Shown here: positions 20,523 to 30,276 of the stretch, in pieces
Position numbering within the stretch: the first letter of the stretch is position 1
Layout: each line of letters begins with the position of its first letter
Source: Nanohaloarchaea archaeon SW_7_43_1
GTDB lineage: Archaea > Nanohalarchaeota > Nanosalinia > Nanosalinales > Nanosalinaceae
DNA: 64,000 bases
Assembly (NCBI GenBank): GCA_003009795.1
Contig: PXPE01000001.1
Span: 62,001-126,000 of the forward strand
Direction: 5' to 3'
Program-made: the position numbers and the translations under genes
Notes under the pieces: model-generated
What the model was told of the DNA's origin: nothing
Databases searched by the model: none
The model's input: the letters and a program-made list of their open reading frames with translations, nothing else

Positions 20523-23500
20523 TCAAAATCTTCCGAGACCGCTCTGCTTCCCTTTACCTCTCAGCTGGCCCTCTGTATAACCGAACACTTTAAGAACTCT
20601 CATAACAACCGGCAGGACCTGATTCTCAATATAGTAATCGGCATCATAACTCTCCGCCTGTTCAAGAACTCGGGCTCTCTGGGATATACTACCTCCTCCC
20701 CGGGTTATAACATACGCTATAGTTGATCCCGGTGAGATGTCTATACCGTCTTTTATCGCTTTTTTAGCCGCTTCGACATGGGGTGCAGTTGAGTCATAGT
20801 TTTCCGGTTTCTTGTTCAAAGTCGTATAAATTCTGAGCTCCTCAACAGGAACCTCGCCTTCTCTAAGCCTTTCTACGATCTGTTTAGCTATCTCAACGGC
20901 TTCATCAACATCATTTTCAAGAACCTGTCTCAAAACCCGTTTCTGAGCCTTCTTGGCGATCGGAGACCAGTCTCTTCTAACCTGTTCGAAACCGGTAATC
21001 TTCATTTCACCGTCTTCACCAATTAATGCATACTTCTTTTTCGCACCGTCTCCGGAATCTGTAGAGGTGAAGAAACCTCTCTTGAAAAAGCCTTCAAACT
21101 CTAGCTGCATGAACTCCGGTAGATCGCTATTGACCTTTTCTAGAAATGAATCCATATTTTCTCTGATATTTTCTCCTTTTAGGAAAACCGAGTCGGTATT
21201 GTGGACCAGTATGAGGCCTTCTGCGTCTACAAAATTGTGTTCCCCTTTTACTTCTAAATCGTATACTTTCTTCTTGGTTGGACTAACTTTCTCAATATTG
21301 TTTATTTTTGCAGGCGTGAAGTCCTTCTTTGCGTATTCAGGAGCTTTAGGGGCGGTATTACGTATTGATTTTATCTGTGGCTTATCAGATCGGTATTTGA
21401 ACGATACATCATTTATAGGTCTTCCATATCCATTCTCTCCAAGTTCCAGTTGTTTAAGTATGTAGTGAACCTGGTTCGCAAGATCAGTACTTTTAGTTGA
21501 GAACTGCATATTTTCAGAATTGTACCTAGAATCGTGATCCTTGTCCCTGGAACCATCAGCCTCGAAGTATCCTTCTACAAAAGACTCCTTGAGCTGTTCG
21601 TGTCCATTGATTATAACTTCGGGAACTTTCTTTCCTGATGAACCTTTACCTGCATCCAAACCTTCCACAAATAAGCTTACAACCGGTTTTCTTTGAATGC
21701 GGTAGTAATACATCTTGTTGCCTGTTCGGGAGTCAATATCTTCGATTAAGGAGAGTTCTTCGTCCAAAATTTCATCAAAGAAGCGTTTTACTCTGCGTAT
21801 ATTGCTTTTGTCTTGCCCTCCGAAGGAGATCATCTGTTTATCCCTCTTTGATGCCGAGCCATCACCACAATAAAAACCTAGTATCCAGGCAAGTTCCAAG
21901 CTTAGCTCCCAAAAACGAGGTACTCTACCAGCCTTGGCGTTTTCACATCCTATATATGAGTGATCGGAGGTGGCTTGGTCTAGTTCTACATATCTTTCGG
22001 AATGCTGGCTGTGGACATGAGAGGATAGATGATATTCTTCCTCACAGTAAGGACATATACCTTTCTCCGCAGGAAATCTCTCAGTATCTCTATAAGCCCT
22101 CAGCTCAGAACTTGTATAATCTAGTTCTGTAAGATCCAGAGTATCTCCTTCTGAATACTTCTCCTCAGCTTCAGGAGGCTCGGATATAGAAATAAGATGA
22201 TCTCCTTTCTCAAGTTCTTGAGCATCTGCCAGCTGGACACTCTCTACGCCATATTTATAGATTGAGTGCTGCGGCGTAACCTCAGTCCTCCCTCTATTGG
22301 TGTCAAACCTCAGTAAATCGCCGTCATAGTCATGCATTATGGCTCGCTTCACGGGCCGGAAAACTGATTCACCTTTCTCCTTATCCCAAGCAAGAGTCTT
22401 GTAACTCTCTGGATCTTCAAAATCTTCAACAAATTTCCCTATCTCAACGAATCTAGTGTTTGCGTCAGAATCCTTCACAACTATCTGTCTCGAATAATCC
22501 AGGCTGTCACCGTACACAATTTCAAATCCTTTATCCTCCGCTACATCTATTGTATCTTGTATATACTGTCTTCCAAGATATGTAGTGGCTTCAGCACATT
22601 CTCTAGAGTACCAGCGGGCGCCATTGTATCCAAGATAGCCATAAAACGAATTTGCAAGTATTTTTTCGGCTTGCTGGCGGTTATCAAGGTTTTGATGCTC
22701 TGAGCTATCTTTATCGAGATCCTTCATTTTTTCCTTTAGCCGGGAACGATCTTCTACTAGTTCTTCAACCAGTTCCGGAAAGAATCCCTGGTTATCTTGG
22801 CAGAAGTTGTAGTCGAACTCGTCCAGTTCAAACTGGTCACCACATTCTTCCAGATTCAGAGTATCTGGCGAAATGTTGTGGCTTACTAGTACGGTAGGAT
22901 ATAGGCTCTTAAAGTCTAGTACGGCTATATTCTCGTAAAGACCTGGTTCAGGAGTATAGACAAATCCTCCTGAGTAAGCCCCTTGTCTTCTCCTGTTTCT
23001 TCTCTTATCCCGGGAAGGCCGATTACGCGGCAACATGTCCCGCTCGTGCGCCTCCCTGAGCAAGTAGTTCTCTGTCAGCTGACCGTATGTAAGCCGACAG
23101 GCATCAAATGGGATCAGCCCTGTTATCCTTGATAACTCCAGTATCTGCGGTCCGATTTCTTTTCCTAACCTGTAAGTTAACTCTGAATCTTTCAATGCGT
23201 AATCCGCGAAAGCACCGAGATCTTCTTTATCTCTCCATGAAGCCTTCATCTCCTCCCAGGAGAGATCATTCTTTTTCTCACCTAACATCTCTTCCGCCAC
23301 AGAGTCAAGATCAAGAGTCTCCGACTCCAGTCCTGGAGAAAGGACATGTGAGATAAACGGATATAAATCAAGGTGCATTCTACCTTTCAATCTAGCTCCT
23401 GCGAATCTTCCCCGACGGTTGAACTTCATTCTTTCCCCATCTCTACCCAATGCCAGTTCAAGGCCATAATCGTCCGATCTTTCCCTGAGAACATCAAAAT

Positions 23501-24239
23501 CATACTCATCGGTGTTGTAGCCGAGTAAAATATCAACATCTCTTTCTCTAACAGTTTCGATCAGTTTTACGATTGTCTCTCTTTCCGTTTCAACGGTTCT
23601 GACGAAGTCTCGGTCGATCTCCTCTGTTGTGAACACTTTCTGGAATTCTTTCGAATAGACTGAGGCCATTATTATCCTGTCTTGGTATACCTCGAGATCG
23701 AAGGCAAGGGTCTCCCAATTCTGGCTCTCATCTGCCTCTACATCTGCACTAATTGACTGGAGCTCTAGCCTGAGATCAAATTCCTCTGAGTTAACTTTTT
23801 CGCCTTCCACTTCTATCCATTCAGCTGGTTTAATTCCTTTATCAATTAGATAACGTTTGTAGAACGGAATGTCAAATTCTCTGCATTCCTTTATTCCTTT
23901 CATATCCCAGAGCTGGTTTTTCAGCTTCGGAATCTTGGGAGGAATGCTGGTATGGACTTTCAGGACTTTTACTTCCTCATTCCCTTGCTTAAGCTTTTCC
24001 TGGCTAATACCTCTAACCGGTATTTCCTCGCCTTCCTCCTCGAACTCGGATTCAATTATCCGCTCTTCAATTCCATCTATATCCTCATGTTCTTTCGGAA
24101 CAGCGTAAAGATAAGGCAGAAAGTCTTTATCGAGGAAGAGAATATTTTCCCCTTCACGAGATACTCCAAAGCACCTAACGGTTACCTCTCCCTCCTCAAT
24201 CCTGTAGTCGGCATCGATCACCTGGATTTTCTTCTTCAT
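20523..24239 (-). CDS. polB: DNA polymerase B (family B), intein-containing precursor
   Basis: Replicative DNA polymerase with 3'-5' exonuclease; 1238-residue precursor, 802 residues after splicing. Exo I is LAFDLEVY (about 180), Exo II GYNTDEYDFD, Exo III YALKDSELT; motif A is DFKSLYPTVLVSHN (about 442), motif B KILANSFYGYLGY (about 526). Motif C (YGDTDS) is split after YGD by an intein at residues 579-1014. The C-terminus QSGLGRF resembles a PCNA-interacting peptide. ATG 24239 (MKKKIQVIDADY) is chosen over the longer frame to 24329, whose extra residues are hydrophobic and unlike PolB. Confidence 0.96.
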   Translation of the reverse strand: MKKKIQVIDADYRIEEGEVTVRCFGVSREGENILFLDKDFLPYLYAVPKEHEDIDGIEERIIESEFEEEGEEIPVRGISQEKLKQGNEEVKVLKVHTSIPPKIPKLKNQLWDMKGIKECREFDIPFYKRYLIDKGIKPAEWIEVEGEKVNSEEFDLRLELQSISADVEADESQNWETLAFDLEVYQDRIIMASVYSKEFQKVFTTEEIDRDFVRTVETERETIVKLIETVRERDVDILLGYNTDEYDFDVLRERSDDYGLELALGRDGERMKFNRRGRFAGARLKGRMHLDLYPFISHVLSPGLESETLDLDSVAEEMLGEKKNDLSWEEMKASWRDKEDLGAFADYALKDSELTYRLGKEIGPQILELSRITGLIPFDACRLTYGQLTENYLLREAHERDMLPRNRPSRDKRRNRRRQGAYSGGFVYTPEPGLYENIAVLDFKSLYPTVLVSHNISPDTLNLEECGDQFELDEFDYNFCQDNQGFFPELVEELVEDRSRLKEKMKDLDKDSSEHQNLDNRQQAEKILANSFYGYLGYNGARWYSRECAEATTYLGRQYIQDTIDVAEDKGFEIVYGDSLDYSRQIVVKDSDANTRFVEIGKFVEDFEDPESYKTLAWDKEKGESVFRPVKRAIMHDYDGDLLRFDTNRGRTEVTPQHSIYKYGVESVQLADAQELEKGDHLISISEPPEAEEKYSEGDTLDLTELDYTSSELRAYRDTERFPAEKGICPYCEEEYHLSSHVHSQHSERYVELDQATSDHSYIGCENAKAGRVPRFWELSLELAWILGFYCGDGSASKRDKQMISFGGQDKSNIRRVKRFFDEILDEELSLIEDIDSRTGNKMYYYRIQRKPVVSLFVEGLDAGKGSSGKKVPEVIINGHEQLKESFVEGYFEADGSRDKDHDSRYNSENMQFSTKSTDLANQVHYILKQLELGENGYGRPINDVSFKYRSDKPQIKSIRNTAPKAPEYAKKDFTPAKINNIEKVSPTKKKVYDLEVKGEHNFVDAEGLILVHNTDSVFLKGENIRENMDSFLEKVNSDLPEFMQLEFEGFFKRGFFTSTDSGDGAKKKYALIGEDGEMKITGFEQVRRDWSPIAKKAQKRVLRQVLENDVDEAVEIAKQIVERLREGEVPVEELRIYTTLNKKPENYDSTAPHVEAAKKAIKDGIDISPGSTIAYVITRGGGSISQRARVLEQAESYDADYYIENQVLPVVMRVLKVFGYTEGQLRGKGKQSGLGRF
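21198..22505 (-). other. Intein in PolB motif C (between YGD and TDS)
   Basis: 436 codons. It begins with Ser (SLDYSRQIVV) and ends with EGLILVHN followed by Thr as the +1 residue, the canonical His-Asn junction. Two LAGLIDADG-type blocks are present, LAWILGFYCGDGS and FVEGYFEADGS, so a homing endonuclease is probably intact. An unusual C2H2-like cluster CPYCEEEYHLSSHVHSQH lies between the N-terminal splicing block and the first endonuclease motif. The insertion site is the well-known pol-c position of archaeal PolB. Confidence 0.93.
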
Positions 24240-24539
24240 GAAAACAAAACCGGTTTTGAAAGTTAAGTAAAGGTCGCTTTGAAAAGGAACTGAGCTGATC
24301 AGTAGCAATTGGGAAAAGATAATACACATGCCTGTTCATACCAAACAAAACAGTTTCTTCAAGAAAAAGTGCTTATGAAAAATTGAAGAGTTTGAAAAGA
24401 GCCAAAAGCTTTTCTGATGTAATCGAAAGGATATAACAGAATCAGCGCTTGGAAGAATCCGGATTTGAACCGAAATCGAGAGAAATGTAATTGGGAAGTT
24501 TTCGGAATTCTTTTTAACCGATATATGAAATAGGTCTTC
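24240..24539. other. Gene-free stretch upstream of polB and the lipoprotein gene
   Basis: 300 nt between divergent genes. It holds the probable promoters of both flanks (TTTTTAACC about 28 nt before ATG 24540) and a tRNA-T-arm-like fragment at 24449-24482. No convincing coding region was seen on either strand. Confidence 0.5.
24449..24482 (-). repeat. tRNA 3'-end-like relic, copy 1
   Basis: On the minus strand TTCGG-TTCAAAT-CCGGA (24458-24474) forms a perfect T-arm (five pairs with one G-T) followed by an acceptor-like TTCTTCCA. No matching 5' half exists, so it is a fragment rather than a gene. GAACCGAAATC and the adjoining bases recur at 25861-25906. Confidence 0.4.
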
Positions 24540-29194: not shown

Positions 29195-29233
29195 AGGAAA
29201 TATTTATAAGAGTCTGAGCTCAACTATGGCATA

Positions 29234-29356
29234 GTGTCAAAAATGGTCCTAAACAACGAATCCGGAATGCATATGATGCCGGTGAGCTACAGCTATAATA
29301 GGGCCAAGGCTAAGTCCAACAAATTCTTCAATATTATTGGCATCCTAGCAGAGTAA
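29234..29356 (+). CDS. Possible small protein (40 codons) preceding structured RNA segment
   Basis: GTG 29234 (or ATG 29243) opens a frame ending at TAA 29354-29356. The peptide includes GMHMMPVSYSYNRAKAKSNK and is not obviously a random translation. AATATTTATAAG at 29199-29210 is a good TATA-like box about 25-30 nt before the start. Whether this is translated or simply the 5' part of the RNA that follows cannot be decided from sequence. Confidence 0.35.
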   Translation: MSKMVLNNESGMHMMPVSYSYNRAKAKSNKFFNIIGILAE

Positions 29357-29804
29357 AGCGGAATGACGCCTTGGCTCCCAAATCGGAGCCATTCTCGAGC
29401 CGACCGCAAAAAACCAAAACAACTGAACAGGGTTTTTCCACTCACCTGCTATCTCCACACCGTAGGGAAAAATCCAGGGGATGACTGTTGCTTGCAAGGT
29501 AGCGGTCATCCTCCAAAACATTTTCCAAACTTGACAACTCGAGATCACTCCACACCAGGTGTCAACAATTAACGCAAACACACGCAACTTCGAAGCCGAG
29601 CTCCAAGCTCAGGCGGAAAGAAACAATGTACCAAGGACACAGCTCAGCTCAGAAGCAACGGTACTAACAGCAACAGCGCTTTAGAAAAGGGATGCCGGAG
29701 AACATTCGTTTTATTTCCAAGCCAGAGTTAATGCTTTTCCACACCTCCGGCTAACAGAGGAACAAACAATACTAAGAACCTCTGTAAAAATCCCTTTCTT
29801 TTTT
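29357..29804 (+). ncRNA. Candidate structured non-coding RNA, unknown family
   Basis: At least nine mutually compatible helices can be drawn: GCGG/CCGC (29358/29404) enclosing TGGCTCC/GGAGCCA (29372/29385); GGGTTTTTCC/GGAAAAATCC (29430/29466); an 11-bp stem 29477-29487/29503-29513; TTGACA/TGTCAA (29531/29560); GAGCT/AGCTC extended by GCC/GGC (29595-29614); GTACC/GGTAC (29628/29660); and AAAGGGAT/ATCCCTTT (29686/29790) enclosing GCCGGAG/CTCCGGC (29694/29745) and ACAGAGG/CCTCTGT (29754/29779). Linkers are A/C-rich, and the last helix runs into CTTTTTT. I could not find the conserved blocks of RNase P RNA or SRP RNA. Orientation is inferred from the upstream TATA box and the T-tract. Confidence 0.5.
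29794..29804 (+). terminator. T-rich terminator after structured segment
   Basis: CTTTCTTTTTT follows the closing helix of the candidate RNA, the usual archaeal termination signal on the plus strand. It overlaps the stop of the convergent gene. Confidence 0.5.
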
Positions 29805-30276
29805 AATCCAGGGCAGCTGACTCGAACGCAACCCATCCGTTCGCCATCGAATCAAGTATCGAGGTGAAAGACTTTGCCGGCTTAATAATCTTCCTTCTAC
29901 CCTTCTTCCCTTCATTTCTTCCCCTGAATTCCATGTATTCATACTTGATAATTCCTAAACGCCTCAATTTGGGAAGAATATTGTTCTTAAGGTTGGACTT
30001 GCCTTTCTCATGCCCCCACTCATCGAAGCTGTTTAGTTTTTTCGAACCAATTTCTCCCTCCTTCTTCAACTCTCTCAGAAAGATCTTGGCATACTTATTT
30101 CTCTTTGGGGACTGCTCATGTGGGAAGAAAAGATCTACAATTTTCTCCCAGTTCCATGCTCTCTCGCTTTTCTTGTATTTTTGTTCTTCCTCAGGTATAG
30201 CTAATGAATGCTTTGTGACTATGGTAGTAGATTTCCTGGCTTCTTCATCGACAAAAGGATGTTGATCTTCCGACAT
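29803..30276 (-). CDS. Unknown protein, possible winged-helix DNA-binding protein
   Basis: 157 residues, unusually basic for this genome in its C-terminal half (RGRNEGKKGRRKIIKPAK). The central region (YAKIFLRELKKEGEIGSKKL, then SNLKNNILPKLRRLGIIKYE) has the helix-turn-helix-wing rhythm of a winged-helix domain. It is divergent from grpE across a short shared promoter region. A regulatory role over the neighbouring chaperone genes is possible but unsupported beyond position. Confidence 0.45.
   Translation of the reverse strand: MSEDQHPFVDEEARKSTTIVTKHSLAIPEEEQKYKKSERAWNWEKIVDLFFPHEQSPKRNKYAKIFLRELKKEGEIGSKKLNSFDEWGHEKGKSNLKNNILPKLRRLGIIKYEYMEFRGRNEGKKGRRKIIKPAKSFTSILDSMANGWVAFESAALD

Follow-up and report, generated by a model that had tools for sequence, protein, structure and literature searches.

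The interval 29195-29804 of the window, by which we mean the whole 64,000-nt stretch of DNA analysed here, probably encodes an undescribed structured bicistronic mRNA that represents a new kind of L7Ae/kink-turn control. Two short reading frames, ORF1 and ORF2, are separated by a kink-turn (k-turn) hairpin and by two further hairpins, P2 and P3. The order of the elements, from a TATA box through ORF1, the k-turn hairpin, P2, P3 and a Shine-Dalgarno sequence to ORF2, is constant; the helices of the k-turn, P2 and P3 covary, ORF2 is conserved as a protein, and ORF1 keeps its frame and its stop. The functional reading that we prefer, with about as much confidence as doubt, is that of a short-leader bicistronic mRNA in which an L7Ae-responsive structured leader and a leader ORF would control ORF2.

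Organization and distribution of the locus

The elements of the locus are the following:

29202-29210, + strand: TATA-like box (TTTATAAG region) in the window sequence
29243-29356, + strand: ORF1, 37 codons plus stop TAA, MVLNNESGMHMMPVSYSYNRAKAKSNKFFNIIGILAE
29243-29251, + strand: segment A1, region of the ORF1 start codon (ATGGTCCTA), pairs with B
29300-29311, + strand: segment B, AGGGCCAAGGCT, at the RAKA codons of ORF1, partner of either A1 or A2
29358-29407, + strand: k-turn hairpin with C-stem GCGG/CCGC, AAU bulge and tandem GA/GA, then the A2:A3 stem
29367-29378, + strand: segment A2 (CGCCTTGGCTCC), 5' strand of the apical stem of the k-turn, alternative partner of B
29430-29475, + strand: hairpin P2 (GGGTTTTTCC / GGAAAAATCC) with a conserved internal loop
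29477-29513, + strand: hairpin P3, about 17 bp
29557-29561, + strand: AGGTG, the Shine-Dalgarno of ORF2, with complementarity to the 3' tail of the 16S, GGAUCACCUCC
29568-29684, + strand: ORF2, 38 aa, (I/M)NANTRNFEAELQAQAERNNVPRTQLSSEATVLTATAL, predicted start AUU, in-frame alternative GUG at 29559
29686-29804, + strand: 3' three-way junction AAAGGGAT..ATCCCTTT and T-tract

Of the 19 genomes in the GTDB family of the window, 18 contain the locus, the sole exception being the 180-contig assembly G012. Two genomes of a second family have it in diverged form, and every carrier belongs to the salt-loving Nanohaloarchaeota. A DNA search matched the region in 13 of the 19 family genomes, and the named matches (SG9, M3_22 and MAGs) are all Nanohaloarchaea. 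With a covariance model built from the end of ORF1 and the k-turn (R1), 17 of the 19 were matched at E<1e-11. The copy in G004, weakly matched by R1 (E 0.065), was confirmed by reading the sequence and by the ORF2 profile (E 4e-16), of which the G004 sequence is itself a member. As for the other family, R1 reached E 0.03 in G023, whose TATA box, ORF1, k-turn and ORF2 were recognised by reading, while the ORF2 profile matched G020, which is not among its members, at E 9e-7. By eye, a histone gene lies upstream of the locus in G023, G020 and the window, and the convergent gene downstream in G023 and G020 resembles 29803-30276, although neither was detected when the product of the window gene was used as a protein query. 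Neither R1 nor the ORF2 profile found the locus in families f2, f4 and f5 of the order, none of the viral contigs searched carries it, and among 394 genomes the ORF2 profile gave convincing full-length matches only in Nanohaloarchaeota. A weak R1 match in G024 coincides with the beginning of a coding frame that appears unrelated, and was for that reason put down to chance.

Only close genera (that of the window and g7) share the 3' three-way junction. On account of this restriction, we regard it as a probable local terminator that separates convergent genes, outside the conserved core. The gene which it faces (29803-30276, - strand) encodes a 157-aa product without a Pfam or NCBIfam family; a relative with 29% identity occurs in the distant archaeal genome G031. 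Farther upstream in the window, 20523-24329 (- strand) appears, from its translation only, to be a 1268-aa DNA polymerase B-like ORF with an apparent intein.

Folding and covariation of the RNA

The + strand of 29195-29804 folds at -163 kcal/mol, compared to -138.8 ± 5.0 kcal/mol in dinucleotide shuffles (z -4.85); the - strand shows no excess folding with respect to its shuffles (z -1.37). The sequence-only reading of this DNA had proposed a structured RNA here, which is borne out by the excess on the + strand and by the covarying helices of the k-turn, P2 and P3, where the compensatory changes that would be expected in homologues are indeed found. Its hairpins, its TATA-like box (placed at 29199-29210; a similar box occurs in 19 of the 20 genomes) and its 3' three-way junction with T-tract are all present where it had located them, and the 5' peptide of about 40 codons that it suspected is real, being ORF1, whose frame is open in all 20 orthologues. 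On the other hand, it had seen no credible protein in about 450 nt, within which a second conserved coding frame, ORF2, is in fact located. Its suggestion of a new ncRNA class stands as regards an undescribed, covarying structured RNA, and falls as regards an RNA free of protein, since the region reads as a bicistronic mRNA.

All 20 sequences have a 3-nt bulge (AAU in the window, GAU in most relatives), tandem sheared G:A/A:G pairs and C- and NC-stems, as well as AUGA and GA with a G:C pair at -1b:-1n. In the k-turn block (20 rows), 93.2% of the cells pair, compared to 83.9 upon shuffling, and 10 cells are changed on both sides, compared to 2.0. The observed covariation score of 0.348, compared to 0.171 upon shuffling, was reached in none of 500 shuffles. 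An alignment-free arm-swap test, in which the own helix arms are compared with arms exchanged between genomes using one genome per genus, gave P 0.0006 for the C-stem and P<0.0001 for the NC-stem of the k-turn, z -5.2 (P<0.0001) for P2 and z -6.8 (P<0.0001) for P3, under permutation nulls that, like the k-turn shuffles, ignore the phylogenetic tree. The apical motif of P3, UGCUUGCAAGGU, is conserved within the family; in the second family, P2 and the loop motif of P3 are not clearly retained.

ORF1

ORF1 ranges from 25 to 43 codons, and the gaps among its orthologues are multiples of 3. Its ATG lies 30-40 nt downstream of the TATA-like box in 19 of the 20 genomes, which leaves a leader of just a few nt. 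The stop codon is interchanged between TAA, TAG and TGA and is found exactly 1 nt before the C-stem of the k-turn in 18 of the 20 genomes. The peptide, which belongs to no family in Pfam or NCBIfam, has a pN/pS of 0.74, and the third positions are fixed within A1, within B and in the final codons, which indicates a constraint at the RNA level, as expected for a leader that is so constrained. Its end, ..(F/L)LAE-stop, is conserved, with different endings in G004, G017, G023 and G020.

ORF2

ORF2 measures 37-39 aa across genomes, with N4 and E11 invariant, and its pN/pS within the family is 0.50, the amino acids being kept while the third codon positions drift. A Shine-Dalgarno sequence (AGGUG in most genomes) and a start codon are present in every genome whose sequence covers that region. 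Most genera start ORF2 at AUG; the start would be AUU in the genus of the window, in g6 and in G014, and AUC in both G007 and G008. Between the Shine-Dalgarno and the AUU of g6 there is no in-frame AUG, GUG or UUG, which makes a non-AUG start difficult to escape in g6; the window offers GUG 29559 as a possible alternative to AUU 29568. A known gene starting at AUU is bacterial infC (IF3), which shares this codon and a good Shine-Dalgarno with the ORF2 of some genera; it is unlike ORF2 in length and sequence class, and the AUU/AUC start of ORF2 is deduced from sequence only. ORF2 matches no Pfam or NCBIfam family, and a PDB profile search returned chance-level matches only.

In the second family, ORF2 begins with MCTDCR (G020) or MCSNCR (G023), a CxxC replacing (D/N)ANxR. 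The N-terminal motif, approximately (D/N)xNx(R/K)xFExEL, also starts other tiny proteins (about 30-47 aa) whose tails differ, at second loci in G003:C1:836895, G009:C1:678586, G011:C22:10567, G014:C12:2725, G008:C1:988674, G010:C1:795144 and G005:C1:426320. The tiny protein at the second locus of G011 is also without an AUG and may begin at AUU.

Alternative pairing of A1, B and A2

Pairing of B with A1 and pairing of B with A2 constitute an alternative complementarity. Comparison of own with exchanged partners gave P 0.0004 for A1:B and P<0.0002 for B:A2; for the window, the A1:B value is -13.4, compared to -11.7 in a per-genome control, which gives weaker support. B:A2 outperforms its controls with shuffled B in 16 of the 19 genomes and is absent in G010, G004 and G023, the three in which A1:B is strong. 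In most genomes A1:B is modest, and in single genomes it is often no better than shuffled B. Ensemble folding, in which there is no energy term for the k-turn itself, mostly favours A1:B together with the k-turn hairpin.

Bacterial leader-peptide attenuators of the trp, tna and speF type likewise combine a short leader ORF with a structured leader ahead of the output gene, and have mutually exclusive helices, for which A1:B and B:A2 are the candidates here. The present locus differs from them in being archaeal, in having a k-turn in place of the terminator/antiterminator, in having the leader start codon inside one of the helices, and in showing no recognisable amino-acid run. The P values of the two pairings speak for an attenuator with a leader ORF, yet B:A2 is missing in 3 of the 19 genomes and A1:B is weak per genome.

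The k-turn and L7Ae

Metal ions by themselves do not suffice to fold k-turns with a G:C pair at -1b:-1n, and every k-turn studied folds with L7Ae (PMC6298567); in other archaea, the binding of L7Ae to mRNA k-turns represses translation (PMC5539422). According to the rule taken from PMC6298567, by which k-turns whose -1b:-1n pair is not C:G need a protein, the G:C found in 20 of 20 sequences places this k-turn in the protein-needing sequence class. Members of the L7Ae family occur in 26 of the 27 genomes. As in the L7Ae-regulated archaeal leaders (l7ae and nop5 of Sulfolobus and Archaeoglobus; PMC5539422, PMC6298567), there is a GAU-type bulge with tandem G:A/A:G, a -1b:-1n pair disfavouring protein-free folding, and a site on the mRNA near translation signals. 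Unlike in those leaders, the k-turn follows the stop of a leader ORF, is accompanied by the A1:B/B:A2 alternative pairing, and neither overlaps nor masks the Shine-Dalgarno of ORF2, from which it is about 125-190 nt distant in the family instead of being adjacent to the ribosome-binding site. Masking of this Shine-Dalgarno by the fold is not supported either, its unpaired probability over 19 genomes being 0.28 for the native and 0.33 for the shuffled sequences.

Nanohaloarchaeal l7ae mRNA carries its own k-turn-like leader, GCCUUGAUGA..GAAAGGUG, whose C-stem would hold the Shine-Dalgarno (e.g., G000:C1:426407-426682). Reading this leader by eye revealed, in most genomes of the family, a CCUU-GAU-GA...GA-AAGG element with AAGG as part of the Shine-Dalgarno; a strict scanner flagged it only in G009. 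Such a leader makes an autoregulation of L7Ae in this phylum probable.

Discussion

We infer that L7Ae folds the k-turn and closes ORF1 because L7Ae represses mRNAs through k-turns in other archaea, the k-turn is of the G:C class, and both L7Ae and the l7ae leader are present. Free L7Ae, a ribosomal and k-turn protein, would bind and fold the k-turn; the folded k-turn would trap A2 with A3, and B would be freed to pair with A1 over the start codon of ORF1, which would then be off. Without L7Ae, B:A2 would form, leaving the ORF1 start open; alternatively, a ribosome stopping 1 nt before the C-stem might open the k-turn. Translation of ORF1 could, in turn, alter the expression of ORF2 via coupling, transcript stability or premature termination. 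The complete scheme, namely an archaeal leader-ORF switch in which an L7Ae-sensing k-turn exchanges strands with the ORF1 start and controls undescribed proteins of about 38 aa, AUU/AUC-started in several genera, is offered as a tentative possibility that we would sooner doubt than affirm.

It is also conceivable, though unlikely, that the RNA itself is the product, either an L7Ae-binding ncRNA or an L7Ae sponge (an RNP scaffold), in which P2 and P3 would be additional binding domains and the ORFs secondary features of a dual-function RNA. The covariation of P2 and P3, with their conserved loops and their distance from the start codons, would be accounted for, as would a k-turn of the L7Ae type and the stronger constraint on ORF1 at the RNA than at the protein level; moreover, an expressed, conserved nanohaloarchaeal intergenic RNA of 266 nt has been reported (PMC7002113), which may or may not be this RNA, SRP RNA being of similar length. 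However, ORF2, with its Shine-Dalgarno and start codon, is clearly under selection as a protein, and ORF1 retains a stop despite the changes between TAA, TAG and TGA. A different role for ORF1 is that of a nascent-peptide sensor (an arrest peptide of the TnaC/SpeFL type) which would stall at the stop, remodel the k-turn and control ORF2 in response to a signal other than L7Ae. The conserved (F/L)LAE end, 1 nt from the k-turn stem in nearly all genomes, fits this proposal, whereas the weak conservation of the peptide, the four deviating endings and the fact that the end is kept also at third positions, which speaks for an RNA constraint, make it quite improbable.

A diverged copy of a known RNA (RNase P RNA, SRP RNA, an H/ACA or C/D guide, or tmRNA) could likewise contain a k-turn, as RNase P, SRP, C/D and H/ACA RNAs do, and the start of ORF2 superficially resembles a tmRNA tag; nevertheless, we regard this as extremely improbable. 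Nowhere in the window is the threshold of an Rfam family attained, an outcome that leaves the structure proposed by the sequence-only reading unrefuted, and scanning the region at relaxed thresholds returned chance matches only (mir-872, E 0.19; snR67, E 8). That reading had also found neither RNase P RNA nor SRP RNA here, and rightly so, the copies of this genome mapping elsewhere: RNase P RNA (RF00373) has no match in the region and one at C1:3405-3813 (E 2e-9, below the curated cut-off), and archaeal SRP RNA (RF01857) matches C1:816233-816500. ARAGORN finds no tmRNA, and ORF2 has a Shine-Dalgarno and start codon of its own. An H/ACA guide is contradicted by the sequence after the k-turn stem, which is of the GAAAA/AAAAA type in orthologues, without an ACA box in place, and a C/D guide by the base-paired, covarying stem that occupies the space between the GA elements. 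A junction of ORF1 with ORF2 by an intron or a ribosomal bypass was also considered; the idea was abandoned in view of the separate Shine-Dalgarno and start of ORF2 and of a spacer whose length is free to vary (188-250 nt). As a separate observation, the RNase P RNA of this clade (G000:C1:3405-3813 and relatives) is divergent, falling below the Rfam cut-off or escaping detection in many genomes.

If the preferred reading of an L7Ae-responsive leader with a leader ORF is true, control by L7Ae and the k-turn would extend to a new kind of gene, and an attenuation-like logic with a leader ORF would exist in Archaea. It would also reveal, in a phylum with reduced genomes, a family of small proteins without a match in the libraries searched.
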